DNA from: Stratiformator vulcanicus
GTDB lineage: Bacteria > Planctomycetota > Planctomycetia > Planctomycetales > Planctomycetaceae
Length of the DNA stretch: 64,000 nucleotides
Reading direction: 5' to 3'
NCBI RefSeq assembly: GCF_007744515.1
Contig: NZ_CP036268.1
Coordinates: 4,955,113 to 5,019,112, forward strand
Shown: in pieces, positions 5,407-59,574 of the stretch
How the letters are laid out: each line of letters opens with the position of its first letter
Position numbering within the stretch: position 1 is the stretch's first letter
Notes under the pieces: model-generated
What the model saw: only the letters and a program-made list of their open reading frames with translations
Databases searched by the model: none
Told to the model about the DNA's origin: nothing
Translations under genes and position numbers: made by a program

Positions 5407-5542
5407 TATTGCAGTCGGGCGTCGAACGTGTTTTTTTCAACACTCGCTACCCCTCACTCGGTGAGGAACACTCTTCTCAGACCAGTCGCAGATCAGAACA
5501 GTCGCAGATCAGACCGTCGAAGCCGTTCGTTCCGGGCCAGCA

Positions 5543-6109: not shown

Positions 6110-6630
6110 CCGCTGTGCTCCAAGATATCGAGTCTTGTTCAATGCGAATAGAATGATTTTTAAGAACCGATTCTGGTTATCTGTTGCGGCTTTATAATGG
6201 GCTATTCCTGCAAACTCTGAAGAACCGCCGGTCGCGGTCCCTCTATTGACGGGCCACTCGCTCCAGAGAATTGGGCAATAGCTTTCATTGTTGCGGTCAG
6301 GCCCTCGATAGCCCGACGCGCGAGCAAGGCGATTCGGCTTCCGCAGGTGGGGCCGCAATGGGCCTCTTTGCCGGCCGTTCTTCGGCAAACTATTTGCGTC
6401 GCAGGACGATCCAAGATTCAATTTGTTTGAGACGCTCTCACTCGCTGGCGCGTCGGGCTATCTGTCGTGATGCTTTCGTTGGACCGTCTTTCTTTGCCCG
6501 GCCATGTAGCGGATCAATTGTGTCACCTTCGGTGGTGCTTCTCGACCGCATTGATGACAATCAGCCTCAGACAATTCCTCCTGAGATACCGAATCGGGCG
6601 AATCGCTTTTCTCCAGCACGATCAAGCAAA
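6110..6630. other. 521-bp intergenic stretch without a supported gene
   Basis: Frames that cross this region are arginine/serine-rich shadows without a start signal. It holds one promoter-like pair (6171-6198), and would form a leader of about 430 nt before the epimerase gene if that promoter is used. Confidence 0.5.
6171..6198 (+). promoter_or_regulatory. Candidate sigma-70 promoter
   Basis: TTCTGG (6171-6176), 16-bp spacer, perfect TATAAT (6193-6198). It points toward the epimerase gene at 6631. The -35 is weak. Confidence 0.35.
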
Positions 6631-7593
6631 ATGCCGCACGTTAAACTGACCGATGCCGACTCGGGCTCCTCGGCGATAATTGCCGCGGACCTCGGGTTCA
6701 ACTGCTTCGAATTCGTCGCGAATCTCGGCGGGACCGAGGTCGATGTTCTCGCCAGGCAGCCTGAATTCCCCGACGAAGGTGGTAAACCGAGTTGGAGCGG
6801 GATTCCGATTTTGTTCCCGTTTCCGAACCGAATCGCCGCGGGCAAATTTACCTGGGAGGGAACAGATTATTCTCTTCCTAAAGAACTGGTCGGGTACGCC
6901 GGTGACAATGCCATCCACGGGTTCTGCCTCGACCGTCCGTGGCGTGTCACGCGGCAAACGGCGAGCGCTGTGACGGGCGAATTTCAGCTCTCCGTCGATG
7001 ATGCCGAGCGTCTCCCGCTGTGGCCGGCTGATTTCAAGATCGAACTTACCTATGAGGTTCTCGGACCGGCCCTTCGCGCTGACATCAAGATTTCCAATCC
7101 GGATTCCAAGTCGCTGCCGTTCGGCTTTGGGACGCATCCCTATTTCAAATTGCCGCTGTCCCCGGGGAGCGATGCCGCCAAGTGTATCGTCGACGCTCCG
7201 GCATCGACCCGCTACCTCCTTGAGGACGGCATCCCGACGGGCGAAATCGTCCCGGCTGAAGGTGAATTCGATTTGCAAGGCGGGGCCGAGTTCGGCTCGC
7301 TGAAATTGGATGACGTCTACGGCGGGCTGTCTTATGAAGAGCAGGGATTCGTCTGCTCGGTGATGGACCCCGCCGCCGGTCTTCAAGTAACCCAGACCTG
7401 CGATGCCTCATTTCGAGAACTCGTCGCGTTCACGCCGTTCTGGCACTCGGCGGTTTGCCTGGAACCGTACACCTGCCCGACCGATGCAATGAACATTGGG
7501 GATCGAGGGCTCGACTCCGGACTGCGGGTGCTCGAGCCCGACGAAGAGTTCCACACTTGGTTTGAAATCCGCGTCGGTCCGGTGGTGGCGTGA
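6631..7593 (+). CDS. Aldose 1-epimerase (galactose mutarotase)-like protein
   Basis: 320 residues from MPHVKLTDADSG. The order of motifs fits the aldose 1-epimerase superfamily: PFPNRIAAGKF (substrate-binding Arg region), GYAGDNAIHGF containing the catalytic-type His, GFGTHPYFKLP with the second His, and a late glutamate in CLEPYTCPTDAMN. It would interconvert alpha and beta anomers of a sugar in the cytoplasm. The reading frame is open further upstream (to 6271), but that part lacks family similarity. Confidence 0.85.
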   Translation: MPHVKLTDADSGSSAIIAADLGFNCFEFVANLGGTEVDVLARQPEFPDEGGKPSWSGIPILFPFPNRIAAGKFTWEGTDYSLPKELVGYAGDNAIHGFCLDRPWRVTRQTASAVTGEFQLSVDDAERLPLWPADFKIELTYEVLGPALRADIKISNPDSKSLPFGFGTHPYFKLPLSPGSDAAKCIVDAPASTRYLLEDGIPTGEIVPAEGEFDLQGGAEFGSLKLDDVYGGLSYEEQGFVCSVMDPAAGLQVTQTCDASFRELVAFTPFWHSAVCLEPYTCPTDAMNIGDRGLDSGLRVLEPDEEFHTWFEIRVGPVVA

Positions 7594-8360: not shown

Positions 8361-10991
8361 TCACTGATCGGCAGGCGGGTCATGTTGAAACTCACCGAGC
8401 ATAGCTTCGTACTCCGGCAGTCCGTGCAACGAAGTCAGATCGGGGTCTTTGGCCATCCATTCGATCTGATCGAATCCGAGTCGGACGGATTGACCTAAGA
8501 GCGTGATCGCTTTGGTTTCCATTTGCCGCAGCCGTTTTTCGTCGACCGGTTCCTCCTGCGCTTTCAGGCGAGTTAACGCCACGCCGTATACACAGGCCGT
8601 GTTGTAAGGATAGAGCGCACTGTTTTCGAATTCCTCGGCCCACTCTTTCGTGCGCTCGATCGCCGCTTCGATATCGCCCCCGGTTTGCACCGACAGGATG
8701 GCGAGGCCGGTGATCGCGAATTCGTCATAGGGATTGAGCTTCAGGGCGGTCTGATAGTCGCCCATGGCCTGTTGCAGATTGCCGAGTTGGTATCGCGCGT
8801 TGGCCCGCCCCGCGAAGGCTTCGGCGTGCTGATCATCGATTTCGACCGCCAGCGTGTAGAGCTCCTCGGCATTGCCCCACTGCTCTTTCGCGGCGGCGTT
8901 CTTGGCCGGCAAAAAGAACTGCTGGGCGGGTGATCGATAACGCAATTGCCGCAGAGTCATCGCGACGTGCCGGCTGCGATCGCTTCGCAGGTCGGCCATT
9001 ACAACCTGCAACGCCTCTTGGGCTTTCGACGAGCCGATCTTGGCCAAGGCGTTCACCGCAGCCGTCCAAATCGACCTGTTACTGTTGGCAACCTGCTCGA
9101 TCAGCAACTCGACGGCCTCCGCGCTCCCGTCGCGTTCCAACCCCTGAATCGTCGTCAGAACGACAGCCGCACTTCCCGTGCGTGTCGCTTCGGGAGCGAG
9201 CGCCATGAATTGCGGCGAGCCGATGTTCGACAGGGCCCGCATCGTAATTTCCCGCTCACCGGCCGACATGCTTCGAAATGACTCGGCAAGAAGGCCTGCC
9301 GTTTGGAGATCACCCAGTTCGGCGAGCAGCGTGATCAGTTTCACGCGGTCCCCGGCTCTTGCAGCCCGAAACTGGGCCTCTGCGATGTCTTTGGTGCGGG
9401 CATCTTTTGTTTGCAACAGCAATCGGAGGACGTCACTCGACAGTCGACCCGATTTCAGCCGATCGAGCGCGAACTCGGTCGCGAGTTCATCGAAGTCGGG
9501 ATCGGCCTTGTTGACGACGGCTGAAAACGCAACTTTTTGCAGGTGCTCGTCATCGCCGAACAGCAGCTTTCGCAATAGCGGCAGCAACTGCGGATGTCCG
9601 ATATGCACGAGGGTCTGAATGGCCTCAGCCCGCACCGGTGACTCGGGATCGATGGCTGCTTCATAAACGATCTCTGACCACATCGGCCGCGGATGTCGGC
9701 CCAAAGCCCTGACAACCGCGGCTTGCGACGCGGGAAGCCCGCCGGCCAGCAGGTCCGTCAACGCTTCGTGCGCCGTGGGAAAACGTGAACCGGCTAAGCT
9801 GTCGAGCGCAGTCGCGGCCGCCTCGTCATCGTCGCCTCGGGCGAACGCCACGAGCGCGTCGACCGCCGCCCGGTCACCAAAGTGCCTGAGTCCAGTGATG
9901 GCCGCATTTCGGACCTGGAGGTCTTGTTCGCGCGACCATCGAATCAAGAGACGAGAATCCGGAATATGCTCGGCTCCGATGCGAATCACGGCCGGTCGAA
10001 CCAGCGAATGCCCTCGCCCCGCCTGCGCGAGCAATTCGGACTCGCTGAGCTGCCCGATCGCCGTGCGAAGGGCAGCCGCGACGGCATCGGACACAGAATC
10101 ATGCGCGTAGTTGCGCGGGGGCGGCTGGGGATAGGAGTACCGCGGCGAAGGCGGGTTCTCGGGAAGTCCGGAGATGTGGAATTCATTAATTCCGCCCGGA
10201 AAATTGGGAAAGGCATTCTGTTCGAGCGGAGTCGCCCCGAGTCGGGACGCCTCCGTCACAAGCCACTGCAGAGCGCGCTGATCGGCTTGCTTCTGCGTGC
10301 CATCGAAGGCAAGCACAAAACGTGTCGCGCCCTTGCCGACCAGTTCACGCAGTGAGTTCGTCAGCAGCCGGGCTCCGGCCACGTCCAACGTCCCGGAGAC
10401 CGTGAGAATCCCCAGTGCGTTACTCGGTCCCGTCTGTTCGACTTGCAGCTTCAAACGCTTAGCGGCGTCTTCGCCGAGATCGACGGCCACTTCCTCGCCG
10501 GTCGATGCAAAGAACTTCAGCACCAGTCGTTCGGGTTCTCCGTTGGGGAGGCCGAAGAACGAGATGTCGATTTGCTCGGACTCGCCCCGGCCGAGCCGAA
10601 CCGGCTCTTTCGTCTCGATCAGCCGGGTCTGGACGTTTCGATCACCAATTTTCAGTAAGAACAATCCCTTTTGCGGCCCACGTCCGAGCGGGATGGACTT
10701 TTCATCCGCCTCAAGCCGAATGCGATCTCTCGGGATTGTGATCGGGCCGTCGGACAGGTTTTCCAGCCGGACCGTCGCCGCGAGGTAAGTCTGCGCCGGC
10801 AAACCGACACCACCGCCGATCGTGTCGGACGAACTGACCTCAACGCTGGCCCGGAACGGAGGTTGAGTTCCCTGCGCCGCGGGATCGTCGCCAAGGACTA
10901 CCCCGGACCCGACGGCGAGCAGGGCGAGGCCGAGACCCCCGCGAAAAAACTGATTTCGGAAACAATTTATCGCCAGCATGTTCGTTCTCAT
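8361..10991 (-). CDS. Large secreted HEAT-repeat protein with C-terminal TPR
   Basis: 876 residues from MRTNMLAINCF. A signal peptide (GLGLALLAVGSGVVLGDD) is followed by a beta-sandwich-like domain (ATVRLENLSDGPITIP), then HEAT-type helical pairs over residues about 330-690 (for example EVRNAAITGLRHFGDRAAVDALVAFA and VRAEAIQTLVHIG), then TPR units (NAEELYTLAVEI, NLQQAMGDYQTALKLNPYD). It is probably a periplasmic scaffold for protein-protein contacts; such architecture is common in planctomycetes. An upstream extension to 11051 in the same frame lacks the signal peptide at its start and was not used. Confidence 0.75.
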   Translation of the reverse strand: MRTNMLAINCFRNQFFRGGLGLALLAVGSGVVLGDDPAAQGTQPPFRASVEVSSSDTIGGGVGLPAQTYLAATVRLENLSDGPITIPRDRIRLEADEKSIPLGRGPQKGLFLLKIGDRNVQTRLIETKEPVRLGRGESEQIDISFFGLPNGEPERLVLKFFASTGEEVAVDLGEDAAKRLKLQVEQTGPSNALGILTVSGTLDVAGARLLTNSLRELVGKGATRFVLAFDGTQKQADQRALQWLVTEASRLGATPLEQNAFPNFPGGINEFHISGLPENPPSPRYSYPQPPPRNYAHDSVSDAVAAALRTAIGQLSESELLAQAGRGHSLVRPAVIRIGAEHIPDSRLLIRWSREQDLQVRNAAITGLRHFGDRAAVDALVAFARGDDDEAAATALDSLAGSRFPTAHEALTDLLAGGLPASQAAVVRALGRHPRPMWSEIVYEAAIDPESPVRAEAIQTLVHIGHPQLLPLLRKLLFGDDEHLQKVAFSAVVNKADPDFDELATEFALDRLKSGRLSSDVLRLLLQTKDARTKDIAEAQFRAARAGDRVKLITLLAELGDLQTAGLLAESFRSMSAGEREITMRALSNIGSPQFMALAPEATRTGSAAVVLTTIQGLERDGSAEAVELLIEQVANSNRSIWTAAVNALAKIGSSKAQEALQVVMADLRSDRSRHVAMTLRQLRYRSPAQQFFLPAKNAAAKEQWGNAEELYTLAVEIDDQHAEAFAGRANARYQLGNLQQAMGDYQTALKLNPYDEFAITGLAILSVQTGGDIEAAIERTKEWAEEFENSALYPYNTACVYGVALTRLKAQEEPVDEKRLRQMETKAITLLGQSVRLGFDQIEWMAKDPDLTSLHGLPEYEAMLGEFQHDPPADQ

Positions 10992-13263: not shown

Positions 13264-13307
<44 letters not shown>

Positions 13308-39408: not shown

Positions 39409-41079
39409 TCATCCGGAGCTTTTCAGATACCTCCGAGCCAGCTTCTTAATCGCTTCCCCGGAATCGACCCGTTCGACCAGCTTCGTATCGCCATCCGCCC
39501 GGATGCCGTCGACCTGTTGCCGCTTCAACCCGAGCGTCTCGGCCATTAAGGGGTCGAGCCCCCCTTCGGAAAGCATGTAGTAAGCCGTCACCGGATCGGA
39601 CTGCCCGTCACGGTGAATCCGCCCGGTGCATTGCTCATGCACGCCGGGTGACCAATCGAGCTCCCCGAACACCAACGTGCGACCGCGGTTCTGCAGGCCG
39701 TCCAGACCCGCCCCGCTTCGCAAGCTGATAATCAGCAGATCGGTCTCGCCGGCGACGAAGCTGTCTTTCGCCCGCTGCTTGGCCGCGGTCGATTCCTCGC
39801 CCGTATAGAACGCCGGGTGAAACTCGCCGAGCTTCGACTGCCAAAGGTCATAAACCGCCCGGTGCCAGCCGAACAGCACGACCGGCTCCCCGCTTTCGAT
39901 CAACATCCGCACGAACGCCGCCACGAAGGGAGCCTTGGCGATCCCGGTGGCCTGCCGCAGGATCATCGAGAACTCCGAAGCAGCTTCCATCCGGGAGCTG
40001 CCGGTGAGTTTCTCCTCGCTGAGGATGATCCGGGCCAGCTCTCCGGCCGCATCCTCGATCCGGCTGAGGGCCTTCTCATCGCAGTCGACGAATTGCGTCA
40101 CCCGCGTCAGGTCGGGCAGTTCTCGGTCGACATCCCGGCGGGTCCGTCGCAGCATCAGGTGATTATCCTTGAGCCAGCACCCGAACGCCTCCGCCTCCTT
40201 GATCCGCTCTTTGTTCGTCCAGACGGAGCACCATTCGCGGATGAATTCGTCACGTCGGCCGAGGGCGTCCGGCTTTAAGACCCGAAAGATGTTCCAGATT
40301 TCCGAGCCGTAGTTATAGATCGGCGTCGCGCTGAGTCCGATGACGTATTCGCACTGATCGGCAATCTCGGTCGACGCCATAAACTTCTGCGAACCCGCGT
40401 GTCTTAATTCCTGGCACTCATCGAACACGATCGCACGGCAGTAGGTCCGCAGCACATCGGCCCAACCGGCCAGCTTGTGATAGGAGCTGATCAGCACGTC
40501 GGGACCGCGGCCGAAGAACGCCGGCAGCTCGTACGGCGTCGATTTCTTAAGAATGTGCGTCGACAGATCGGGGGCGAATTTATTGATCTCCGCCTCCCAC
40601 TGCCGCGGCAGATGAGCCGGGCAGACGACGATCGCCGGTCGGCAGTCGGTGCGGATCAATCCCGCGATCGTGGTGACCGTCTTGCCGAGTCCGAGGTCAT
40701 CGGCGAGCAGCAGCCGCGAAGTCGCCGCCCACAGATCGGCCGCGACCGCCTGATAGTGCCGCGGCGGCAGAGCCATCGGCACCGGCTCCGGTCGATAGTC
40801 CGACCCCGTGATCTGCCGCAGACGCAGCAGCTTGTCCCGGTGCCGGCGCGACTGGGCGGTGAGATCCTCCCGACCCTCGATCGAGAGCGGAAAGCGATCG
40901 CAGAACCATTCGAGATTCCGACCGACTTCCGGCGTGTCGGGCAGGGAGACGACCCCGGCCGCCGCGGTGGGGATCGAGCGGAATATCCGCTTGACCCACA
41001 GCTTCACGTGCGGCTCGCACTCAATGAGCCAGCGGCCTTCCTCCTTCCAGAGCCGCCCGTATGTCTTTGCCGCCTGCAT
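39409..41079 (-). CDS. SNF2-family DNA helicase/translocase
   Basis: 556 residues from MQAAKTYGRLWKEEG; the start overlaps the stop of the VRR-NUC gene. Helicase motifs: I LLLADDLGLGKTVT, II IVFDECQELRHAG (DECQ in place of DEAH), III IGLSATPIYNYGSE, and VI EQCTGRIHRDGQSD. An N-terminal HARP-like extension is possible. In phages this type of enzyme often acts with a nuclease in recombination or replication fork handling. Translational overlap with the nuclease upstream supports a joint role. Confidence 0.85.
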   Translation of the reverse strand: MQAAKTYGRLWKEEGRWLIECEPHVKLWVKRIFRSIPTAAAGVVSLPDTPEVGRNLEWFCDRFPLSIEGREDLTAQSRRHRDKLLRLRQITGSDYRPEPVPMALPPRHYQAVAADLWAATSRLLLADDLGLGKTVTTIAGLIRTDCRPAIVVCPAHLPRQWEAEINKFAPDLSTHILKKSTPYELPAFFGRGPDVLISSYHKLAGWADVLRTYCRAIVFDECQELRHAGSQKFMASTEIADQCEYVIGLSATPIYNYGSEIWNIFRVLKPDALGRRDEFIREWCSVWTNKERIKEAEAFGCWLKDNHLMLRRTRRDVDRELPDLTRVTQFVDCDEKALSRIEDAAGELARIILSEEKLTGSSRMEAASEFSMILRQATGIAKAPFVAAFVRMLIESGEPVVLFGWHRAVYDLWQSKLGEFHPAFYTGEESTAAKQRAKDSFVAGETDLLIISLRSGAGLDGLQNRGRTLVFGELDWSPGVHEQCTGRIHRDGQSDPVTAYYMLSEGGLDPLMAETLGLKRQQVDGIRADGDTKLVERVDSGEAIKKLARRYLKSSG

Positions 41080-41429
41080 TAAAACACCCCTGCCACCCAG
41101 ACCACTCGAAACGGTTTGCCCCGCAGCTGCTGCATCGTGAAGCGATGCGTGTGTCGGCTCGTCACCAGCACGATCGCACCGAGGTCGGTCACGTCGGCGT
41201 ACCGCATCAGTTGCCGCAACACCGCCGCCGGACCTCCCGCGACCTTGCACTCGATCCCGATTCGCCCCACCCGAAAGTCGATCGGCCCCACGCCGGTCTC
41301 CGACTCCCGCTCGAAGGTGATCAGCAGCGACCGCAGCAGTCGCTCGATGTCATCCTGCATTTCCCGCTCGGTCCCGAACCGAACCCGATGCCGCCTGATC
41401 TCATCAGCCAACCAATCAACATCACTCAC
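41079..41429 (-). CDS. VRR-NUC domain endonuclease
   Basis: 116 residues, a compact VRR-NUC. Active-site pattern: GPIDFRVGRIGIECKVAGG gives Asp and Glu-x-Lys of the PD-(D/E)xK fold, followed by AVLRQLMRYADVTDLGAIVLVTS. Such stand-alone modules in phages are structure-specific nucleases for recombination intermediates. It overlaps the methyltransferase gene start by eight bases at one end and the SNF2 gene at the other. Confidence 0.8.
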   Translation of the reverse strand: MSDVDWLADEIRRHRVRFGTEREMQDDIERLLRSLLITFERESETGVGPIDFRVGRIGIECKVAGGPAAVLRQLMRYADVTDLGAIVLVTSRHTHRFTMQQLRGKPFRVVWVAGVF

Positions 41430-42852
41430 GCCGACACCTCATCTTCGAAGAGTGAGATTTGCCCGGTGTCGGCTTCGGCGGTGTCTTCGACTTCGCCGGT
41501 CTTAAGATGCGACGTTCCGCCAGCTCGGCGTACTCCGGGTTCAGCTCGATTCCCCAACCGATCCGCCCGAGATCGATCGCCGCCCGGACCGTTGTCCCGC
41601 TGCCGACAAACGGATCGAGCACGACGCACGGCACCAGCTCGTCGCGGGTGTGTTCGTGATCGCAGGTCGGTTGCCAACCGATGGTGCGGAACGTCGTTTG
41701 GTGCCGGTTTGGATCACGGTTGCCGACGATCGATCCGTTCTGTTGCTCATACGGCGAAGCCTCATCATTGCTCGCCCGGTTGACCTTGCTGTTCGTGCCC
41801 GGTCGTGTCGCCTCGCGGTTTCGCTCCACGATCCTCTCCCAAGGTGCCCCGCATGTCGGGCACGCTCCGACCGCCGAGGTGCCGGCCTTAATGCAGGTGC
41901 GGGGGACCGCCGAGGGGAACGTCGCGAAATGAGCCTCGCCGAAGGGTTCGGTGGAGAACGTCCATAGGTCACCACCGCCGACGTCGGCGTTCAGGAACTC
42001 CCAAAGTGCTTCGGCGTCGTCGATGCCGTAATCGGCCGACCAGACGCCCCGCTTGTTTCGGTCAGTCGGCAGATCATCGCGAGTCGCGTTATAGACCGAC
42101 GCAATGAAGGACGCGTTGGCTTTCACGCCACCCGTTGCCGCCTCACGTACCGCGACCGAGTCATAGAAATAATTTGGGGACTTCGTGAGCAGGAAAATAT
42201 ACTCGTGGGCTTTGCTGCAGCGGTCGCGCACACTCTCCGGCATCGGCGATTTCTTCGCCCAGATAATATCCTGCCGCAGATACCAACCGGCGTCTTGCAA
42301 CGCGAGTGCGACACGCCACGGGATGCCGACGAGGTTTTTCTCTTTAAGACTCTCGACCCCCTTGTGGGCGTGCGACAACGGGGATACGTCCGCACCGTCT
42401 CTGCGATTCGCCGACTTATTCCGATTCGGCCCGTCGACCGGGTAGTCCGCGACGTAGGCGTGTTTGCCCGCGTGGCCGCTCCGGACTCGCTTATTGATTC
42501 CGGACGGAGAATGCTCTTGCGTTCGCGTCGACGTCAGCCCACTCTTGTCCTGGCCGTTCATCGACCCCTTCGGCTTGCTGACATAGGTATCGCCGAGATT
42601 CAGCCACAGCGTCCCGTCGTCTCTTAATACCCGCCCGACCTCATCAAAGACCTCGACCATCCGGCTGATGAACTCAACCGGTGACGCCTCAAGCCCGATC
42701 TGCCCTTCGTGCTGATAATCGCGCAAGCCCCAATACGGCGGGGAAGTCGCGACGCACTGCACCGATCGGTCCGGCAGGTCCGATAGCCGATCGAGCACGT
42801 CTCCGACGAGGATCCCCCAGTTGCGGCCGGAGTGATTGAAATCAATGCTCAC
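41422..42852 (-). CDS. DNA N4-cytosine/N6-adenine methyltransferase
   Basis: 476 residues. Catalytic motif IV SPPYWGLRDYQ at residues about 40-50 comes before motif I DPFVGSGTTVRAAIDLG near the end, the beta-type order. A Cys-pair segment (ACPTCGAPWERIV) lies before motif I. SPPY fits both N4-C and N6-A enzymes. No restriction enzyme is adjacent, so it is probably a solitary phage methyltransferase that protects or marks phage DNA. The ATG overlaps the previous stop as ATGA. Confidence 0.85.
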   Translation of the reverse strand: MSIDFNHSGRNWGILVGDVLDRLSDLPDRSVQCVATSPPYWGLRDYQHEGQIGLEASPVEFISRMVEVFDEVGRVLRDDGTLWLNLGDTYVSKPKGSMNGQDKSGLTSTRTQEHSPSGINKRVRSGHAGKHAYVADYPVDGPNRNKSANRRDGADVSPLSHAHKGVESLKEKNLVGIPWRVALALQDAGWYLRQDIIWAKKSPMPESVRDRCSKAHEYIFLLTKSPNYFYDSVAVREAATGGVKANASFIASVYNATRDDLPTDRNKRGVWSADYGIDDAEALWEFLNADVGGGDLWTFSTEPFGEAHFATFPSAVPRTCIKAGTSAVGACPTCGAPWERIVERNREATRPGTNSKVNRASNDEASPYEQQNGSIVGNRDPNRHQTTFRTIGWQPTCDHEHTRDELVPCVVLDPFVGSGTTVRAAIDLGRIGWGIELNPEYAELAERRILRPAKSKTPPKPTPGKSHSSKMRCRRE

Positions 42853-43091
42853 TCATCACCCCCTTCCGTGACCGCCGGCATCGCCCGGAAGGCTTCGAGG
42901 TGTTCCAGGTTGCTCAACCGTCGAGCCGACGCGACCGCATCGATCGCGGCGTTCCCGAACTCGGCGGCGACGTACCGCTTCTCGCCGGTCTCTTTTAAGG
43001 TCACCTCCCAAAGTTTTAATCGCTGCCCATCGTCAAAGAACGCCGGCCCGATATCCTCGACCAGGTCGCCCAACCGCCCGTAAGCATCCAT
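42849..43091 (-). CDS. Small phage protein of the modification operon
   Basis: 80 residues from MDAYGRLGDLVEDIG. Plain soluble sequence with VAAEFGNAAIDAVASARRLSNL; acidic end EGGDE. Frame extends upstream to 43136 through repeat sequence, so the start at 43091 is preferred. Function unknown, overlaps with the methyltransferase gene. Confidence 0.5.
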   Translation of the reverse strand: MDAYGRLGDLVEDIGPAFFDDGQRLKLWEVTLKETGEKRYVAAEFGNAAIDAVASARRLSNLEHLEAFRAMPAVTEGGDE

Positions 43092-43132
43092 CGCAAACCC
43101 CTCTCGTCTCTGGCCACTAGACACTCGCCCCA

Positions 43133-43516
43133 TCAAACATCCGCCCCCGCGAGCCCGCGTCGCGGTGTTCGCTCCCCGATCACCCGCTCGATCTGTTCGA
43201 GCGTCTGCAGCGGCCTGTCCCTCACGTCGACGATGCTGTACCGCAGCACCCGCCAGCCGAGTTCCGCCGCCCGGTTATATTTCTCGATGTCTCTTAAGAC
43301 CCCGCCCTTCGAGCGATGCCCGCTCGGACCGTCACTCAGAATCCCGCCCTCCAATTCGACCGCGACTTTCATGCGCGGCCACGGCCACGCGAAGTCGAAA
43401 CGCCACTTGCGATCCGTATCGAACGCGAACTCCCGCACATAGTCCGGAATCCCCTCCACCCCCAGCACCTCCGCCCGGTTTAAGAGTGCCTCAAATTGTG
43501 CTTCAAGTTCGGACAT
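43133..43516 (-). CDS. Vsr/DUF559-like endonuclease
   Basis: 127 residues. WRFDFAWPWPRMKVAVELEGG has the Asp and Glu of a PD-(D/E)xK site, as in Vsr-like/DUF559 proteins; LGWRVLRYSIVDVRDRPLQTLEQIERV completes the fold. Many phages carry such a single-domain nuclease for recombination or packaging. It lies between methyltransferase genes, which may suggest a mismatch- or modification-related role. Confidence 0.65.
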   Translation of the reverse strand: MSELEAQFEALLNRAEVLGVEGIPDYVREFAFDTDRKWRFDFAWPWPRMKVAVELEGGILSDGPSGHRSKGGVLRDIEKYNRAAELGWRVLRYSIVDVRDRPLQTLEQIERVIGERTPRRGLAGADV

Positions 43517-43566
43517 GAAAGTGGCTAGAGTCGAGGGGTTAGAGGCTAGAGGTCGCTGAGTGATGA

Positions 43567-43824
43567 TTAGGCCGGGTCACTGCTGCGCGGCGAAGATCTC
43601 TTCGTTGACGTTAAGTCTCGAATCAAGCAGAACTGGATGAAACTCGACGATTTTCTCGGGTCACCACAATGCGGACGGAGGATGAGATACCGCAGGAACC
43701 GCGACAGCGTCTTAAGGTCGCAATCTTTCGGAAGCGTATCGCATCCTCGAACGACGGTCAGCAGTACGCCCTGATACCGCAGCCCGAGTCTGCACACCCA
43801 GTCCTGTAAAATGCCGTTTTTCAT
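43567..43824 (-). CDS. Small conserved phage protein
   Basis: 85 residues: MKNGILQDWVCRLGLRYQGV then LLTVVRGCDTLPKDCDLKTL, SRFLRYLILRPHCGDPR and KSSSFI. I recall this pattern (LQDWV, LLTxVRGxDxxPK, LLRxLRxxxL) from small proteins of unrelated tailed phages, placed in replication/modification regions. No function is established. Its composition differs from the Arg-rich shadows around it. Confidence 0.55.
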   Translation of the reverse strand: MKNGILQDWVCRLGLRYQGVLLTVVRGCDTLPKDCDLKTLSRFLRYLILRPHCGDPRKSSSFIQFCLIRDLTSTKRSSPRSSDPA

Positions 43825-43854
43825 TGCTCTCTATCTCCCTATTAAGATTTTCGA

Positions 43855-45090
43855 TTAAGACCTCTCGGCTCTAGCCCCTGGACTCTCGCCTCTCTCATCG
43901 GTGGAATTAAATTGCTGCTCGGCTCTTAAGATTCGCCTGGCAATCCATGCCGCCACGGGGGCGGCGACACCGTTGCCGCACATGCGGTAGCGGGCCGTGT
44001 CGCTGATCTCGACCCTCTCGCCGTCGTCTCCGGCCCCCCATCTGGTCCAGTCGTCCGGCCAGCCCTGAAGCCGCTCGCATTCCTTTGGGGTGAGTCGCCG
44101 AACGCCGAACGTGGTCTGCAACACATTTTGAGTCGGATCGGTACTGCAATTGAGGGCTGCCGTCCGGTCGCCCTGCTCCGTGACGCCGCAATTGCCGGAG
44201 GTCCGATACGAAACCGGAATTAAGTGCCCTTCCTTCGTGTCGCTGTCCGGTCCCTTCGCATCCCGTTCCTGCAGGCACCACGCGGTCTCGGGGATGAGCC
44301 GATCCTCCTGAGCCGCATTGTCCGCGTACGGCCGTGCCGTGATCGGGTGAGACAGAAAGGGAACGCCACCCGAACCGTTGGCCTGTCTTAATGTGCCGGC
44401 CGGCCCGACGTTCGAGCCGTGGCATTGATAGGCGATGAGGTGTCCGGCCTGTCCTTGATTGTCATCTGGGCCACACGTTCCAACGCCGTTCGAAGTGAGG
44501 GCGCTAACTCCCGCCCCCGCTTCTCGGCTCGACGGAGGATCCCACGACACGCTTTCGGACTCAAAAAGTATTTCGGCGGGATCGGGTCCGTTTCCAAGGC
44601 GTCCGACAATGAAGACACGGCGGCGTCGCTGTGCCACTCCGTCGTATTGAGCGTCAAGCATCCGGTAGGCCCACCGATACCCGAGGTCCCCCAGCGTCCC
44701 GAGGACGATTCCCATATCCCGTCGCTTGTTTGATGACAGAAGGCCAGGGACGTTCTCGATGAGAACCCAACGGGCACCGCTCGCATGAGCGAGACCTGAG
44801 CAGCGGAAGAACAGGGAGCTTCGCTCGCCCGCCAATCCCTCACGGCGTCCAGCCACGCTGAGGTCCTGGCAGGGGAATCCGAAGCACACGAGGTCGGGTC
44901 CGGATCGTCGAAGAGCGTCTTCTGTAGCATCGTCATTCACGTCCTCGGTTCGCTTCACGTCAGACCAGCGGTGCTTCAACACCCGGTTGCACGCCGCGTC
45001 CTGTTCACACTGAAACACCGGCACCATCCCCGCCGCTTCCAGACCGAGATCAAACCCCCCGGCCCCCGTACACAGGCTGCCAAATCTCAT
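43855..45090 (-). CDS. DNA (cytosine-5) methyltransferase
   Basis: 411 residues. Motif I RFGSLCTGAGGFDLGLEAAG, motif IV DLVCFGFPCQDLSVAG with the catalytic Cys, motif VI VLIENVPG, motif VIII GVAQRRRRVFIVGRLG, and motif X MCGNGVAAPVAAWIARRI. The target recognition part lies at about 190-330. There is no partner nuclease, so it is probably an orphan phage enzyme. A second open frame (44388-44936) overlaps it in another phase. Confidence 0.9.
   Translation of the reverse strand: MRFGSLCTGAGGFDLGLEAAGMVPVFQCEQDAACNRVLKHRWSDVKRTEDVNDDATEDALRRSGPDLVCFGFPCQDLSVAGRREGLAGERSSLFFRCSGLAHASGARWVLIENVPGLLSSNKRRDMGIVLGTLGDLGYRWAYRMLDAQYDGVAQRRRRVFIVGRLGNGPDPAEILFESESVSWDPPSSREAGAGVSALTSNGVGTCGPDDNQGQAGHLIAYQCHGSNVGPAGTLRQANGSGGVPFLSHPITARPYADNAAQEDRLIPETAWCLQERDAKGPDSDTKEGHLIPVSYRTSGNCGVTEQGDRTAALNCSTDPTQNVLQTTFGVRRLTPKECERLQGWPDDWTRWGAGDDGERVEISDTARYRMCGNGVAAPVAAWIARRILRAEQQFNSTDERGESPGARAERS
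44388..44936 (-). CDS. Candidate overlapping gene inside the C5 methyltransferase gene
   Basis: 182 residues in a different phase from the methyltransferase. Unlike ordinary shadow frames it has segments I recognise from small phage proteins annotated near such methyltransferases: SSLSDALETDPIPPKYFLSP and KACRGILRRAEKRGREL. The same alternate frame could be preserved only because the methyltransferase is conserved, so this is a candidate, not an established gene. Confidence 0.35.
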   Translation of the reverse strand: MTMLQKTLFDDPDPTSCASDSPARTSAWLDAVRDWRASEAPCSSAAQVSLMRAVPVGFSSRTSLAFCHQTSDGIWESSSGRWGTSGIGGPTGCLTLNTTEWHSDAAVSSLSDALETDPIPPKYFLSPKACRGILRRAEKRGRELAPSLRTALERVAQMTIKDRPDTSSPINATARTSGRPAH

Positions 45091-45104: not shown

Positions 45105-45182
45105 TCGTGGGTTTGTGCCTGCGGCGGCATGACTCCGGCTTCCCGATTGCTGCTGCCGCAGGCGCCGGCCCACGAAGTGGGT
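45105..45182. repeat. Inverted pair of phage hairpin repeats
   Basis: CCCACTTCGTGGG plus TTTGTGCCTGCGGCGGC on one side, and the reverse form GCTGCCGCAGGC then CCCACGAAGTGGG on the other. It lies in the gap between the methyltransferase and DnaB genes, and the right copy ends in the DnaB stop codon region. Confidence 0.75.
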
Positions 45183-46555
45183 TAGAAGCCGAGGTCGGTC
45201 TCGGTGTAGCCCGCCGGTTCTTCGGCTCGGGAGGCGTCCAGGAACTGCGTGCGATTCTCCGCCCATGTCAGCGGCACCGTGCCGGTCGCCCCGTCGCGCT
45301 GCTTGGCGATAATTAAGTCCGCTTCGCCCGGTCGGTCGCCCTTGTCGAAGAACGATGGGCGATGCAGCAGCATCACGATGTCGGCGTCCTGCTCGATCGC
45401 TCCCGACTCCCGCAGATCGGAGAGCCGCGGCCGCTTGTTCTCTCGCATCTCGCTTTGCCGGTTGAGCTGAGCCAGCACGATGATCGGCACCTCGGCCGTT
45501 CTCGCGATCGCCTTGAGCTGGCGGCTGATCGTCGAGACCTGCTGCTCGCGCGGCACCCGCCGATCCTCCGGCTCGATGAGCTGCAGGTAGTCGACGATCA
45601 CGAGCTTGACACCGTCGCCGGTGGGGCCCAGTCTTCGCCGCCGGTACCGCCGGACGATCGCCCCCATCCGCCCCGTCGTCGCCGCCGGTCGATCGTCGAT
45701 CACCAGCGGCAGGTTCTGCACCTGGGCGTTGCGTTGCAGGATCCGCTCCCGTTCGTGTTCGAGCAGGGTTCCGGGTTCCTTGATCCGATGCGAATCGATC
45801 GCCGCCAGACTCGACAGCATCCGCACCGCGATCTCCTCCTTCGATTGCTCGAGACTGAACAGCAACACGCCGTCCCCCGCCTCGGCCACGTTGAGCGCGA
45901 TATTCCCCGCCAGAGCCGTCTTGCCCATCGAAGGCCGGGCGGCCAGCACCACGATCTGACCCGGCCGCAACCCGTGCGTCAGTCCGTCGAGGTCGAAGAA
46001 CCCGGTCTTGAGCCCCGGCTCCTGCCCCGTCTCGAAGGCTTCCCACGCCGTTCTGACCGCCACGTCGAGCGACACGGCCCCATCGTCGTGAACATCGTCC
46101 GAAGTCTGCGACAACGCATCCCAGGCGGATGCAACGACCTCTGAGACATCGCGGGTCCGGTCGTGAGCCGTTTGGGCCATCGTCAGCCCCGCGTATAGCA
46201 CCGCCCGCCGCAGGGCACAGTCCCGCACGATCTGAGCGTAATGCACCGCGTGACCGGCCTGCGGCACCGCTTCGAGGCAGTCGAGCAGATAAGCGGGGCC
46301 GCCCGCCTCGTCGAGCTTGCCGTCGCGCTGCAACTGCTCGGCCACCGTGACCGTGTCGACCTTCCGACCTCGCTCGTACAGGGCCCACGCCGCCCGGTAG
46401 ATGAACGCGTGCCGCTCCCGGTGAAACATCTCCGGCCGGAAGAACTCCCCGATGTCGTCGAGCTTCGACGCCTGCAGCAGCACCCCCCCGATCAACGACC
46501 GCTCCGCCTCCAAATCCTCCGGGGGACTTCCGTCCCGTTGTGCCTGCGGCGGCAT
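45182..46555 (-). CDS. dnaB: Replicative DNA helicase, DnaB type
   Basis: 457 residues. N-terminal domain: DLEAERSLIGGVLLQASKLDD then EFFRPEMFHRERHAFIYRA. C-terminal RecA-fold helicase with Walker A VLAARPSMGKTALAGN and VLLFSLEQSKEEIAVRML, all typical of bacterial DnaB. It unwinds DNA at the phage replication fork. The start ATG is embedded in a copy of the phage repeat (MPPQAQ), with AGGA seven bases upstream. Follows the initiator gene as in many lambdoid-type replication modules. Confidence 0.93.
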   Translation of the reverse strand: MPPQAQRDGSPPEDLEAERSLIGGVLLQASKLDDIGEFFRPEMFHRERHAFIYRAAWALYERGRKVDTVTVAEQLQRDGKLDEAGGPAYLLDCLEAVPQAGHAVHYAQIVRDCALRRAVLYAGLTMAQTAHDRTRDVSEVVASAWDALSQTSDDVHDDGAVSLDVAVRTAWEAFETGQEPGLKTGFFDLDGLTHGLRPGQIVVLAARPSMGKTALAGNIALNVAEAGDGVLLFSLEQSKEEIAVRMLSSLAAIDSHRIKEPGTLLEHERERILQRNAQVQNLPLVIDDRPAATTGRMGAIVRRYRRRRLGPTGDGVKLVIVDYLQLIEPEDRRVPREQQVSTISRQLKAIARTAEVPIIVLAQLNRQSEMRENKRPRLSDLRESGAIEQDADIVMLLHRPSFFDKGDRPGEADLIIAKQRDGATGTVPLTWAENRTQFLDASRAEEPAGYTETDLGF

Positions 46556-46585: not shown

Positions 46586-47488
46586 TCACGACTGATGCCC
46601 CTCACCTCTCGCCTCTAAACTCTCACCCGCAGGCAAAGCCTGCCCATCGATCTCGGCGACGATCGCGTGGGCCTGCCGGACGATCTCGCTCGTCGTGACC
46701 TTGGCGAAACTCCCGCGGCGGAGGGCGAGGCGAAACCACCGCACGGCGTCGAGCGGCGGCTCATCGTCGCGGAGCTTCCGGTCGAGCGGCGGCGGCAGGT
46801 CCGCGATCGATTTCGCCTCGGTGACCCGCAGAGCGAGGGCATGAGCCAGTCGCCGGTGATCCGACCGTTCGCCGGCAAGTGGCCACGGCCCGCCTCGCTC
46901 CGGAGCCTCGGCGAGCCACCGGTCGAGCCGCCGCGGATCGGCGAGGATCTCCGGCGTCAGCGGCGAAGGTGCCGACGACGACCCAGGGCGAGGCGAAGCC
47001 GAGCCTCCCCCCTCCTTCCCCAAATCCGAAGCCCCCCCCGGGGGGTTTGGGGGGTTATATTCTCTTTTCTTATCTGGTAACGCTTCCGGTAACGCTCCGC
47101 CCGTTACACCGCCGTTTCCGGCCCCGTTACGGTTGCGTTTCTTTTCGCGGTGTTGGGCGACCCGCCGATTGCTCTTAGCCCTTTTCTTGCTTGAGGTTCC
47201 GAGAAATCGCTCGAAGTTCGGAATGGTCACCGCCCCGTCACCTTCGGCGGCGAGCCATCCGACCGCGATCATCGCATCGGCGAAGCCGTCAAGGTGTACG
47301 TGCCGGTCGATCCATTTTGGTGTAACGCTCAGAGCGTTACCGGTTTCACTGTGAGAATCGGCCCACGACCAGAAGCGATGGAGCTTGCCGACGATCAGGT
47401 CTTCCTCGACATCCAGACGGGTCGACATCGCGATCACGTCCGGGTCGGCGGGCAGTTCCTTCCGCATCATGATCCACTCAACCGCCAT
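46586..47488 (-). CDS. Replication initiator-like protein
   Basis: 300 residues from MAVEWIMMRKELPADPDV. The N-terminal winged-helix-like part (MSTRLDVEEDLIVGKLHRFW and WLAAEGDGAVTIPNFERFLG) resembles phage initiator and DnaD/DnaT-like proteins. A low-complexity middle (GGVTGGALPEALPD, YNPPNPPGGASDLG) contains the putative iterons. A helical C-terminus (DAVRWFRLALRRGSF) could contact the helicase. It lies directly before dnaB, so it probably loads that helicase at the origin. Frame extension to 47599 lacks a domain. Confidence 0.6.
   Translation of the reverse strand: MAVEWIMMRKELPADPDVIAMSTRLDVEEDLIVGKLHRFWSWADSHSETGNALSVTPKWIDRHVHLDGFADAMIAVGWLAAEGDGAVTIPNFERFLGTSSKKRAKSNRRVAQHREKKRNRNGAGNGGVTGGALPEALPDKKREYNPPNPPGGASDLGKEGGGSASPRPGSSSAPSPLTPEILADPRRLDRWLAEAPERGGPWPLAGERSDHRRLAHALALRVTEAKSIADLPPPLDRKLRDDEPPLDAVRWFRLALRRGSFAKVTTSEIVRQAHAIVAEIDGQALPAGESLEARGEGHQS
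47055..47340. other. Putative phage replication origin inside the initiator gene
   Basis: A+T-rich tract (47055-47075) beside repeated GGTAACGCT (47076-47084 and 47088-47096) and inverted CGTTAC (47102-47107 and 47125-47130). A perfect palindrome, GTAACGCT / AGCGTTAC with a 3-base centre, lies at 47322-47340. The A+T tract is next to G6TTTG6. This matches the lambda pattern of iterons within the initiator gene. Confidence 0.45.
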
Positions 47489-48232: not shown

Positions 48233-49930
48233 TCACCGATCCCGAGACAGCGGCATGATGATGAAGGTCCACGAGCCGACCGTGGCTTTTAATTGCGAGT
48301 CGCCGTCGGTGAATCCGAAGTCGATCACGTCGTCGCCGGCATGTTTTAAGAAACCGGCAATTAACGTGACGTCGAGCGTGATCACCAGGTCGAAGTCGCA
48401 GGCCACCGGCAACTGCACTTCGGCCACGCCGAGGTCTTGCGACGCGGCCTTAATTTTGAGCGTGCCGTCGGATAGGAAGTACAGGTCGATTCCACGCGTC
48501 TCTTCGGCCGTCGTAACCCGTGCCTTCTCGACCGCCTTTAAGAACGGGGCCGCCGGGATCGAGACATTCTTGGGCGTGTCCGGTGGGATCACCGTTCGAT
48601 ACCGAGGAAAGCGACCCTGCATCAAACGCGTCTGCAGTCGCCAGCCTTCCGACCGGAACGCCGCGGTGTTCGAAGTGAGCATGACTTCGACGTCCGCTTC
48701 CCCGTCCGGGCAGAGTGCCCGCAGGACCTGCATTGCTTTGGCCGGTACCACCGGCGGAGCATCGGCCGCTCTTGGCTCCGATGGCGCGATCACGAGTCGC
48801 TCGACCGATAGCTGCCGGCTGTCAGTCGCAGCAAAGACCAGGCTGTCAGCGTCCCGCTCGAACAGCACACCGCCAAGGACATACAACGACGACGTCTTAT
48901 CGCAAACGAACGCGACGTGATCAATCACTCGCCTTAATACCCCGCCGGGAACCGACAGTGGATCATCCCCGGCAAACGCCGCCTCCGGTGGAAACTCCGC
49001 CGCATCGGCGACGTTTAATTTCCACTCATCGGCACCCGAGCGGATGACGAGGTTGTCATCAACGGTCAGGTCGATCGATTCCTTGCCGTTGATCAGCCGG
49101 AGAATTTCGCCGAACTTCGCGGCCGGGACCAGCGTTTCAAACATCCCGCCGCCGATGGTCGCCTGATCCACTTCGGCCACGAGATACATTTCACTATCGG
49201 TGGCGTGTATTTCCAGCTTCCCGCCCTCGCCGACCAGACGGAAGTTCTTTAAGACCTCCATCGGTGTTGTTTTCTTGGCAACCGGCAGCGCGAGAGCGAC
49301 CGCCTTCTGCAGTGCGGCTGCTGACACGTTGCAGCTCGCCGCGGTTAAGGAATGCGGCATCGGATAAAAACCTCCCCGTGCGGCCGGGTGATGAAATTGG
49401 CCCAACGCCCGCCGCACGATCGGACGCGATTCAAACAGTCTTCGACTGATCTCTACTTCGGTCAGAGACAGCTCGGCCGCGGCCTCGCTTCTCGACATGT
49501 CATCCCGCTGAACCTTCAACACGACCTCCGCGGTGACCTCGTCGAGACCTGCCACCGCGAAGGACCACAGGTCCTCGGCTTCGATCGCGAGCGTGGGATC
49601 GGTGGCGGTTTCGGCAGCCGAGTCGCCGTCGAACGTCACCGGATCGCAGGTCGCGGTCTGTTCCCGCTTCTCTCGCCGACCGTGGCCGCGTGCCTGCATC
49701 AGGCAGGCCCGCCGCACACTCCGCCGCACGTAGTGCAGCACGTCCCCCTTCGACTCGTCTTGCCGCTCGAAGCACCGCCAGACCGCCTCCATCGCCGCCG
49801 ACTCCATGTCGTCGCGATCGACTCGCGGAAACCGCTTCGCCATACCGGCGACGATCGGTTCCGCGACCGCGAGCAGCTCGACGAGCTGCTCATCGGGAGT
49901 CGAGGGGCGAGGGGAGAGCGAATCAGCCAC
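48233..49930 (-). CDS. Sigma-70-like domain fused to DNA polymerase III beta sliding clamp
   Basis: 565 residues in one open frame. Residues about 15-95 look like sigma region 2 (VDRDDMESAAMEAVWRCF, DVLHYVRRSVRRACLMQAR), and 120-178 like region 4 with an HTH (MSRSEAAAELSLTEVEISRR). After an HHPAARGGFYP linker, residues 191-565 are a complete beta clamp (LQKAVALALPVAKKTTPMEV, VLRRVIDHVAFVC, WRLQTRLMQGRFPRYRTV, FTDGDSQLKATVGSWTFIIM), 375 residues against 366 in E. coli. The clamp begins at an internal ATG with a strong ribosome binding site, so a free clamp may also be made. Sits before replication genes and four bases after the preceding gene. Confidence 0.8.
   Translation of the reverse strand: MADSLSPRPSTPDEQLVELLAVAEPIVAGMAKRFPRVDRDDMESAAMEAVWRCFERQDESKGDVLHYVRRSVRRACLMQARGHGRREKREQTATCDPVTFDGDSAAETATDPTLAIEAEDLWSFAVAGLDEVTAEVVLKVQRDDMSRSEAAAELSLTEVEISRRLFESRPIVRRALGQFHHPAARGGFYPMPHSLTAASCNVSAAALQKAVALALPVAKKTTPMEVLKNFRLVGEGGKLEIHATDSEMYLVAEVDQATIGGGMFETLVPAAKFGEILRLINGKESIDLTVDDNLVIRSGADEWKLNVADAAEFPPEAAFAGDDPLSVPGGVLRRVIDHVAFVCDKTSSLYVLGGVLFERDADSLVFAATDSRQLSVERLVIAPSEPRAADAPPVVPAKAMQVLRALCPDGEADVEVMLTSNTAAFRSEGWRLQTRLMQGRFPRYRTVIPPDTPKNVSIPAAPFLKAVEKARVTTAEETRGIDLYFLSDGTLKIKAASQDLGVAEVQLPVACDFDLVITLDVTLIAGFLKHAGDDVIDFGFTDGDSQLKATVGSWTFIIMPLSRDR
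49358..49377 (-). promoter_or_regulatory. Internal ribosome binding site and start for a free clamp
   Basis: On the minus strand GGGGAGG (49377-49371) precedes the clamp ATG (49360-49358) by ten bases. This is one of the best Shine-Dalgarno sites in the phage. It would give a 375-residue clamp without the sigma part. Confidence 0.6.
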
Positions 49931-49933
49931 GGT

Positions 49934-50713
49934 CTACTCGGCCCCCACTTCGTGGGCTTGGGCCTGCGGCAGCTCGGTCGGTCCGGCCGGACTGTCCGCT
50001 CGCGATACCGCCCAACTCGCCGCACTGAGCCCGGCAAAGAGCACGACCATCGAGACGACGAACATCACGCGCGCTTCGATCACCCACTTCCGCATTTCGT
50101 CGTGATGGTCAGACACCGCCCGATGCGAATGGCCGACCTCTTCGATCCATTCGCCGAGCTTGTCGCTGCGAACGGCGATTTGCGTCACCGACCGATGAGC
50201 TTCATTCGCGTGCTCAGCCGCCTTCTCGCAATGAGCCAGCGTTTCATCCCGCAGCACCGTGCAGGACTGCTCGGCGGTCCGGCAGACCAGGGCCATTTCG
50301 ATCGGTTCGAGCAGCAGACTCCGCAGCGAGTCCCCCTGATCTTCGCACGCGGCGATCACCTCCGACGTGTCATCCACATCGATCGTGTTCAGCCACGAGC
50401 GGAAGTGATCGAGCTTCCGCCACGTCCCGGCCGACATCGTGAGCGTCTTATAATCGTGCAGCCCGACCGAATCGGGCTGGCCCGTCACCTGCAGGGCGTT
50501 CCGCATCGCCCGCAGCCACCGCCGTTCGTCGGGCGACGTCCACGGCCCATCGTCATCCTCATCGTCGAGCAATGACAGGAACGTCTCGATCTCGCCGACG
50601 CAGGTTCTTAAGAATTCGACCGGAAACCGAATCCGGGTCGACGCCTCATCGAGCCGCCCCTCCAGATTAAACACCCCGTTCGCCGTCGCTGTAATCACGT
50701 CTGTCTGCGACAT
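49934..50713 (-). CDS. Helical membrane-anchored phage protein
   Basis: 259 residues from MSQTDVITATANGVF (start backed by AAAGGTGA). Long soluble helical part (FLRTCVGEIETFLSLLDDEDD and so on), then a late transmembrane helix ARVMFVVSMVVLFAGLSAASW and a short exported end with the repeat-coded ELPQAQ. It stops four bases before the sigma-clamp gene, with which it is probably co-translated. It could be a membrane partner of the replication or transcription machinery, but nothing in sequence tells. Confidence 0.5.
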   Translation of the reverse strand: MSQTDVITATANGVFNLEGRLDEASTRIRFPVEFLRTCVGEIETFLSLLDDEDDDGPWTSPDERRWLRAMRNALQVTGQPDSVGLHDYKTLTMSAGTWRKLDHFRSWLNTIDVDDTSEVIAACEDQGDSLRSLLLEPIEMALVCRTAEQSCTVLRDETLAHCEKAAEHANEAHRSVTQIAVRSDKLGEWIEEVGHSHRAVSDHHDEMRKWVIEARVMFVVSMVVLFAGLSAASWAVSRADSPAGPTELPQAQAHEVGAE

Positions 50714-50779
50714 TAAATCACCTTTCGTAAGAATTAGACTTTCCCTCTGGCCACTCACCTCTCGCCTCTCGCCTCTCCC

Positions 50780-52954: not shown

Positions 52955-53028
52955 TAGCCGCGGCAGGATTCGCACCTGCGACCTCCGGGTTATGAACCCG
53001 GCGAGCTACTGGACTGCTCCACGCGGCG
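52955..53028 (-). tRNA. Phage-encoded initiator-type tRNA (CAU)
   Basis: Folds as a cloverleaf with anticodon loop TTCATAA. Anticodon stem CCGGG/CCCGG keeps three consecutive G-C pairs next to the loop and the first acceptor pair is a C-U mismatch; both are hallmarks of initiator tRNA-fMet. The acceptor otherwise pairs perfectly. Unusual: the T loop reads TGCGAAT, so base 55 is G rather than U, and the D-loop has CAG where a GG is normal, altering the expected D-T contacts. The tRNA is 74 nt and lies just upstream of the basic gene at 52372. Confidence 0.75.
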
Positions 53029-54244: not shown

Positions 54245-55417
54245 TCATGCTGGCGACACATTCGGCAGCAGCCAGTGCCGCACGTGTTCGGCAACCTTCA
54301 GGAGTCGATGCTCGAATATCTTCTCGCGGTACGTTGCGGCCATCGACTGATCGGAGTGGCCCATCATAAAGTCTGTCGCTACTTGGTCGGCCGAGTCCCC
54401 AGCGATCGTCTCGAACGTGTGCCTCAACACGTAGAAGTTAAGCCCACGTCGGTCGAATTCTCTCCCCTTCAATAACTTTTTGAACGTCTGGGCCACGATG
54501 TCGATATTTGTAATCTTTGAGTCTCCGTCTTCGACCTCCGTCTCCTTCACGCGCACGTACCTCGCCCCGGTCCGCGTGAGGAACACGAGACCAGCGTCTG
54601 CGGGATCCTTCGGGACTACTCGCACCGTCATTGCCAGCCGAAGCATAAGTTCGGTTTCGGGCCAGAGCGGGCACCGCCTCTCCTCTCCGGTCTTTGGCCG
54701 CGGGAAATCGAGAAAGGCGTGGCCATCAACGTAGAGCAAAGCCCGGCGTGGCAGCGTAGCGACATCGGTGTTCCCGAAACCACAGTTGATTCCGAGCAGG
54801 ATCATGGCCCGCATCTTCACATCGGCCACCGGTAGAAGTTGCCGGATGTGTTCCGCGGCGATCAGCTTCTTTTCCTGTTCGTTCCTGTGCCGCTTCATTG
54901 CCCGTTTTCCGGGCTGCTTGAAGCTAGGCCCGAAGCGAACCTGAACGGGCAACAATTCGGATTCGAACCCCCAAGTGAACATCATGCGGACGTGAGTAAT
55001 TTCGCGGCGGAGCGCGTGAACGCCCCTGCCCTTCGTCAATCGCTCCCGGACCCGCTGAAAGTCACTCGGCTTGATGGAGTCAGCCGGGGTATCGGGACCG
55101 AGGATATCAACGACAGTTTGAGCGGTACGGCGGTAATCACCCCAAGTGCGGAGGGCAAGCTCTTTCGATTGCACCCTCGCCCGCTGGTCATCAAGCCACT
55201 CGTCCGCTAGATCAGCGATCGTCGTCCCCTCACCACGGCGAACTTCTCGCCCGGCTTGCAGGTCATCCTTTTCGTCCAGATACTTTGCGAGGGCATCCGC
55301 TGGATTAGCCCACACTCCGAAAAACTTGGTCTTTCCCCGTATCTTCTTCGCCCACTGACCGTTTCGGTGTGGATACAACGGGAAATCAACAGATGGCTTC
55401 GCAGGCTTATCATTCAT
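54245..55417 (-). CDS. int: Tyrosine integrase
   Basis: 390 residues. N-terminal arm-type DNA-binding part (FPLYPHRNGQWAKKIRGKTK) and SAM-like core (TIADLADEWLDDQRARV). Catalytic domain: RPKTGEERRCPLWPET (Lys region), FYVLRHTFETIAGDS (Arg II), DFMMGHSDQSM (His), MAATYREK (nucleophile Tyr). The usual first Arg in GLRxxE reads GFGNTD here, and the first His of HxLR reads Tyr; this variant may be normal in planctomycete integrases. The gene lies 80 bp from the attR tRNA. Confidence 0.9.
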   Translation of the reverse strand: MNDKPAKPSVDFPLYPHRNGQWAKKIRGKTKFFGVWANPADALAKYLDEKDDLQAGREVRRGEGTTIADLADEWLDDQRARVQSKELALRTWGDYRRTAQTVVDILGPDTPADSIKPSDFQRVRERLTKGRGVHALRREITHVRMMFTWGFESELLPVQVRFGPSFKQPGKRAMKRHRNEQEKKLIAAEHIRQLLPVADVKMRAMILLGINCGFGNTDVATLPRRALLYVDGHAFLDFPRPKTGEERRCPLWPETELMLRLAMTVRVVPKDPADAGLVFLTRTGARYVRVKETEVEDGDSKITNIDIVAQTFKKLLKGREFDRRGLNFYVLRHTFETIAGDSADQVATDFMMGHSDQSMAATYREKIFEHRLLKVAEHVRHWLLPNVSPA

Positions 55418-55480: not shown

Positions 55481-55497
55481 CTGCCACATAACAAGTT

Positions 55498-55571
<74 letters not shown>

Positions 55572-55604
55572 TTATTTTCACCGTCAGTTCCAGTCTCCGC
55601 CCGC

Positions 55605-59344: not shown

Positions 59345-59574
59345 ACAAGCCCGCAGCGCCAGCAAGGGATCCAAGGGAAAAGTCAAGATGTCGTGTGACC
59401 CGGACACCGTCCGGGCGGCAAAGCCGCAAGAGCAACCAGCGGAGTCGGAAAAGCTAACGAATACAAGCCGCGCACGGAGTAAGCGGATATCGCACGGGTT
59501 GATCCGCTTACTTCGTGCGCGGCTTGTCGAGGAACCTCTCGGAGCGAAATCCCTTGCTGGCGCTGCGGGCTTGT
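59345..59574. repeat. Nested palindromic repeats
   Basis: Outer arms, 26 bp each (59345-59370 and 59549-59574; start ACAAGCCCGCAGCGCCAGC), are perfect inverted copies. Inner arms of 26 bp (59463-59488 and 59502-59527; start ACAAGCCGCGCACG) are inverted with one mismatch. Between them at 59400-59435 is a stretch like the left-flank MITE (GGGCGGCAAAGCCGCAAGAG). Two repeat families are nested in one structure. Confidence 0.8.

Follow-up and report, generated by a model that had tools for sequence, protein, structure and literature searches.

Does a phage gene in a planctomycete chromosome naturally join a sigma factor to a sliding clamp, or are two separate genes run together in the sequence? 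The question was raised by an earlier note on the window, the whole stretch of 64,000 nucleotides of the Stratiformator vulcanicus chromosome that was analyzed here. The note described a natural sigma-clamp fusion in one reading frame and offered a frameshift between two separate genes as the alternative. To our knowledge, clamp-coupled late transcription has been worked out only for T4-like phages. Our best reading is that sigma and clamp stand in one frame, which would yield free clamp and also, provided the sequence is correct, a fusion of 61 kDa.

The reading frame and its two parts

The ORF listing and its translation gave a single uninterrupted 565-aa frame with a GTG start at 48233-49930 on the minus strand, in which a linker of about 12 residues connects a sigma-70-like N-terminus to a full-length beta clamp of the DnaN type. 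When the sequence was re-read, the ORF, its coordinates, length and GTG start, the clamp ATG at 49360 and the TAA at 49347-49345 in the +1 frame were all as the earlier note had stated. An artifact of ORF calling was ruled out, as each half has independent homology in one same frame. The features of the ORF are as follows.

48233..49930, minus strand: continuous ORF, 565 aa, GTG start; sigma-like domain, linker and beta clamp (Pfam, PHROGs)
49673..49846, minus strand: sigma-70 region 2-like segment, residues 29-86 (PF04542, 2.7e-5, 24.3 bits; pLDDT 78-93)
49427..49558, minus strand: weak sigma-70 region 4-like segment, residues 125-168 (PF08281, 0.012, under cut-off; low-confidence model)
49361..49396, minus strand: linker, residues 179-190, predicted to be disordered; codon usage atypical in the fusion frame
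49371..49377, minus strand: GGGGAGG, Shine-Dalgarno-like, for the internal clamp ATG (-11.5 kcal/mol)
48233..49360, minus strand: complete beta sliding clamp, 375 aa, from ATG 49360 (three Pfam domains, phrog_947, E. coli beta fold)
49345..49347, minus strand: TAA in the +1 frame, the sigma stop if sigma is a separate overlapping gene (frame inspection)

The Pfam profile Sigma70_r2 (PF04542) matched residues 1-189 alone with an E value of 2.7e-5 and 24.3 bits, just over its cut-off of 24, and scored 21.7 bits, under the cut-off, in the whole-ORF scan. On the same residues, Sigma70_r4_2 (PF08281) gave an E value of 0.012 and 15.7 bits, below its cut-off of 25.7. Of the two sigma segments read in this part by the earlier note, region 2 was thus recovered and region 4 fell short; a sigma HMM match, the lack of which the note would have counted against the fusion, was found. 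In PHROGs, the N-terminal part matched the sigma family phrog_1740 (4e-7). Both of two structure models built the region 2 helices with confidence (pLDDT 78-93), and both modeled region 4 poorly, with very low confidence at residues 164-194. Most of the top-ranked Foldseek matches to the sigma part were chains of sigma factors or initiation complexes, but the best E value was only 0.39 and none was significant; a sequence search of solved structures with the sigma part gave no match. Its nearest relatives were ECF-type sigma factors, with E values of 1e-6 to 1e-3 in overlapping samples of 170 genomes from the family, 398 from the class and 392 from the phylum, and the best planctomycete ECF/sigma-70 matches showed 26-33% identity. 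The region 2-like and region 4-like segments follow each other as in other sigma factors, in order and in spacing, and the resemblance to region 4 persists in the fusion frame to about 49403. These comparisons moderately support the identity of the putative sigma domain, of which region 4 is the weakest element.

Residues 191-565 are, on profile and model evidence, certain to be a complete beta clamp. All three DNA_pol3_beta domains were found in order and over cut-off in the full ORF (4.8e-21, 8.1e-15 and 1.5e-6), and the clamp belonged to phrog_947 (6e-53), bearing out the clamp assignment made earlier for these residues. The clamp model was confident, with a TM score to E. coli beta of 0.91-0.93 (by target length), and it matched solved beta clamps. 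The C-terminus reads MPL, and 62 of 112 conserved clamp columns are retained. The host's own dnaN lies elsewhere in the genome, with 40% identity to the phage clamp.

A strong internal ribosome binding site, which the earlier note had seen before the clamp, was confirmed. GGGGAGG ends 10 nt before ATG 49360, with -11.5 kcal/mol against the anti-Shine-Dalgarno sequence. Because only 0.4% of the 539 minus-strand ATGs in the prophage reach a ribosome binding site of this strength, the clamp appears to be arranged as its own gene, and we infer from this site that free clamp would be produced from the internal ATG.

Prophage setting and search for relatives

The ORF belongs to the replication module of a 42-kb prophage that looks intact and is bounded by two identical 44-bp copies of tRNA-Met sequence in direct orientation (13264-13307 and 55498-55541). 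Genes for terminase, portal, major head protein and tape measure stand between the att copies, and the other prophage genes examined were of full length. The phage setting given in the earlier note stands. The surrounding features are listed below.

13264..13307, plus strand: att copy at one prophage end, 44-bp copy of tRNA-Met sequence
55498..55541, plus strand: other att copy, within tRNA-Met 55497-55572 and adjoining the integrase gene at 54245-55417
49934..50758, minus strand: upstream gene, 274 aa, no assigned family; its stop is 3 nt ahead of the sigma GTG
46586..47488, minus strand: replication initiation protein (phrog_2509, 4e-46); the ORF opens at 47599
45182..46555, minus strand: DnaB-like replicative helicase (phrog_19, 3e-100)

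The start of the replication initiator is likely better placed at ATG 47488, giving an 11-nt overlap. The prophage replication region also holds genes for a C5 cytosine methyltransferase, an N4/N6 methyltransferase and an SNF2-type helicase (39409-45090), and a second tRNA-Met (CAT) gene was observed inside the prophage at 52955-53028 on the minus strand. Short G+C-rich repeats of 24-41 bp, partly intergenic, occur in the prophage at 25810/45098, 28124/37087/37358 and 37117/37144, and CCCACTTCGTGGG is an example of the hairpin-like cores that some of them contain. A repeat of 26-28 bp, ATCCGCTTACTTCGTGCGCGGCTTGT, is present three times in the flanking host DNA, at 59500, 61406 and 63142.

No other sigma-clamp frame was found in the family (170), class (398) and phylum (392) genomes, which are overlapping and partial samples, so the same fusion, suggested earlier as something to look for in related planctomycete prophages, was not recovered there. 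No second fusion was seen in GTDB contigs, viral contigs, phages or plasmids, where the contig scans by pattern detect close relatives only, and the peptide-pattern scans returned no close relatives of the ORF or of either half. Clamp-alignment scans yielded one distant viral clamp and cellular clamps, none with a sigma part; in the viral fold library, the 50 matches listed were clamps only, with no fusion among them. Given this reach of the pattern scans and the incomplete genome samples, the absence is not proof that the fusion is unique. None of the literature searched describes a sigma-clamp fusion.

The early region was not shared by same-family prophages that have the terminase in common (up to 48%). 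Among genomes sharing the replication initiator, one has a clamp nearby, and this candidate was rejected, the upstream frame extension there not being sigma. The sigma match in MT836872 was dismissed, being surrounded by cellular-type genes. The genes directly 5' of other phage clamps were not sigma-like. In the Arthrobacter phages EvePickles (locus 4615-5004) and Richie (locus 4603-5004), a DNA-binding gene with an HTH_23 domain overlaps the clamp start by 4 nt. The clamp of Caulobacter phage Sansa (locus 5743-7128) carries an Ala/Lys-rich low-complexity N-terminal extension of about 80 residues with no Pfam match.

The junction and alternative readings

Over 49405-49361, the phage codon statistics preferred the +1 frame over the fusion frame by 3.5 nats, a preference reached in 3.2% of true coding windows of equal length and in 32% of shuffles of the same segment. 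The junction does not look like long-established coding in the fusion frame, and this codon signal cannot separate the end of a +1-coded gene, a former spacer and a stretch shaped by the ribosome binding site. If the +1 frame ends at TAA 49347-49345, it overlaps the clamp start by 16 nt; genes of this prophage commonly overlap by 1-17 nt, as at about seven other junctions, in agreement with the two-gene layout that the earlier note gave as its alternative. The junction is the weak point of the fusion reading and looks as much like overlapping genes as like an old fusion.

Two overlapping genes, a sigma gene running to TAA 49347-49345 and a clamp gene from ATG 49360, could have been joined by an indel at the junction, either an assembly error or a mutation in the lysogen. 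The proteins would then act apart, sigma as a phage transcription factor and the clamp in replication. The lead of the +1 frame, an overlap that fits those of the neighbors, the strong ribosome binding site of the clamp and the separate clamp and sigma genes of the phage 16-3 group (see below) all favor this account, whereas the frequency of an equal codon signal among the shuffles weakens the first of these points. The genome of strain Pan189 (CP036268.1) was published as closed from Illumina MiSeq short reads (PMC10509075), which argues against an assembly error, and the chromosome is closed at 5,228,745 bp. With the region 4 resemblance continuing in the fusion frame as far as about 49403, any indel would also need to sit within fewer than 60 nt. 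We regard overlapping genes as a serious possibility, at clearly less than an even chance.

The fusion could instead be a recent accident, in which the sigma stop was lost by point mutation and a former short spacer is read through into the clamp; the fusion would then have no selected role, and clamp would come from its own start. Spacer-like codon usage at the junction, the independent clamp start, the lack of relatives with the fusion in the genomes searched and the freedom of an integrated prophage to drift are consistent with such a loss, but the other prophage genes examined are of full length, with little further sign of decay, and we consider it improbable. A sigma-derived module that no longer recognizes promoters and serves replication, for example as a DNA-binding or polymerase-blocking part, would suit the borderline Pfam score of region 2, the subthreshold score of region 4 and the adjoining replication initiator, but is very unlikely; the two sigma-like segments in their normal arrangement and the nearest relatives, which are ordinary ECF sigma factors, speak against it.

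For a real, expressed and meaningful sigma-clamp join in the early operon of a temperate planctomycete phage speak the single frame without a stop, the certain clamp with its MPL end and retained conserved columns, the supported region 2, the flexible linker that separates the domains, the site in the replication module, the intact-looking prophage genes, the shared operon of the 16-3 type, the T4 precedent and the published closed Illumina genome (PMC10509075). Against it stand the lack of a second fusion in the collections searched, the junction codons favoring +1, the strong clamp start and the subthreshold region 4. The natural fusion claimed in the earlier note thus has partial support: it keeps its frame, its domains and its precedent and is weakened at the junction and by the want of a second case in the collections searched. 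We hold this join only tentatively, with clearly less than even confidence and barely ahead of the overlapping genes.

If the sequence is correct, the fusion would be made, because no stop lies between the GTG and the clamp end: ribosomes starting at the GTG would read on to a 61-kDa sigma-clamp protein, and the internal ATG would give free clamp. Fusion and free subunits may assemble into mixed dimeric rings, and loading of these rings would place the sigma domain on phage DNA as it replicates. The ring-borne sigma would capture host RNA polymerase and bring it to phage (late) promoters, and the free clamp would dilute sigma and serve the replisome. What we infer for this ORF is that the fusion is translated, binds RNA polymerase, selects promoters and is loaded as a ring. 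E. coli beta tolerates N-terminal tags, and the arrangement of the replication module followed by the structural genes on one strand is compatible with a late-acting factor. By analogy with T4, a clamp-tethered sigma is a plausible mechanism. The whole scheme, a natural covalent sigma-clamp that would be loaded along with the replication machinery and take RNA polymerase to promoters of the phage, its dose set by free clamp from the internal start, is rather unlikely as it stands. The Shine-Dalgarno-like GGGGAGG lies directly before a T-run and could promote +1 slippage into the frame of TAA 49347, releasing free sigma.

Comparison with known systems

Thermus phage Lalka8, with a clamp of the phrog_947 type, shares with the prophage the order clamp, replication initiator, DnaB. 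In contrast, phage clamps of the Lalka8 type lack a sigma domain, and no gene adjoining them is annotated as a sigma. Planctomycete ECF/sigma-70 factors resemble the phage sigma in having region 2 and region 4-like segments, but they are stand-alone host proteins, and the divergent phage sigma is close to none of them.

In the Rhizobium phages 16-3, AP-16-3, RHph_TM3_3_14B and RHph_X2_25, a DnaN-type clamp gene comes first, and a small sigma-70 family gene, or a pair of them, lies 1.3-2.3 kb further on in the same gene run. A DnaN-type clamp thus shares one early operon with small sigma-70 family protein(s), as in the prophage, but unlike in the prophage the genes are separate, 1.3-2.3 kb apart and with the clamp first. 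In 16-3 (locus 9354-10366) and AP-16-3 (locus 5526-6532), the sigma-70-like genes 3' of the clamp form a tandem pair. The 16-3-type phages are probably one lineage, and a profile of their sigmas gave no significant match to the prophage sigma. Phage NV1.1.1 also has both a clamp and a sigma. The earlier note had held that homologues with the two parts always apart would count against it; in other phages, clamp and sigma were seen only as separate genes, as in the 16-3 group. The group gives no more than circumstantial backing to a working clamp-sigma link.

In T4, the sigma-like gp55 and the co-activator gp33 bind the gp45 clamp through C-terminal motifs, and the DNA-loaded clamp activates late transcription (PMC2988020, PMC7892883). 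The analogy with gp55 and gp45 drawn in the earlier note stands as an analogy: both pair a sigma-like phage protein with a sliding clamp, and RNA polymerase would be tethered by a clamp on DNA that is being replicated. The T4 proteins are separate, whereas the prophage ORF would link them covalently if the frame is real; gp45 is a trimer, whereas the prophage clamp is a dimer-type DnaN; and gp55 is region 2-like without a recognizable region 4. The Pfam and PHROG matches of the prophage ORF are to DnaN-type clamps and the sigma-70/ECF families. The authors of the T4 structure expect further natural cases and point to an artificial activator-clamp fusion that proves the concept (PMC7892883). 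A natural sigma-clamp fusion, if true, would be a one-gene version of T4-type coupling and would open the idea to direct testing. Should the fusion prove spurious, the sigma beside a DnaN-type clamp here and the one operon in the 16-3 group would still hint that such coupling may exist outside T4-like phages.
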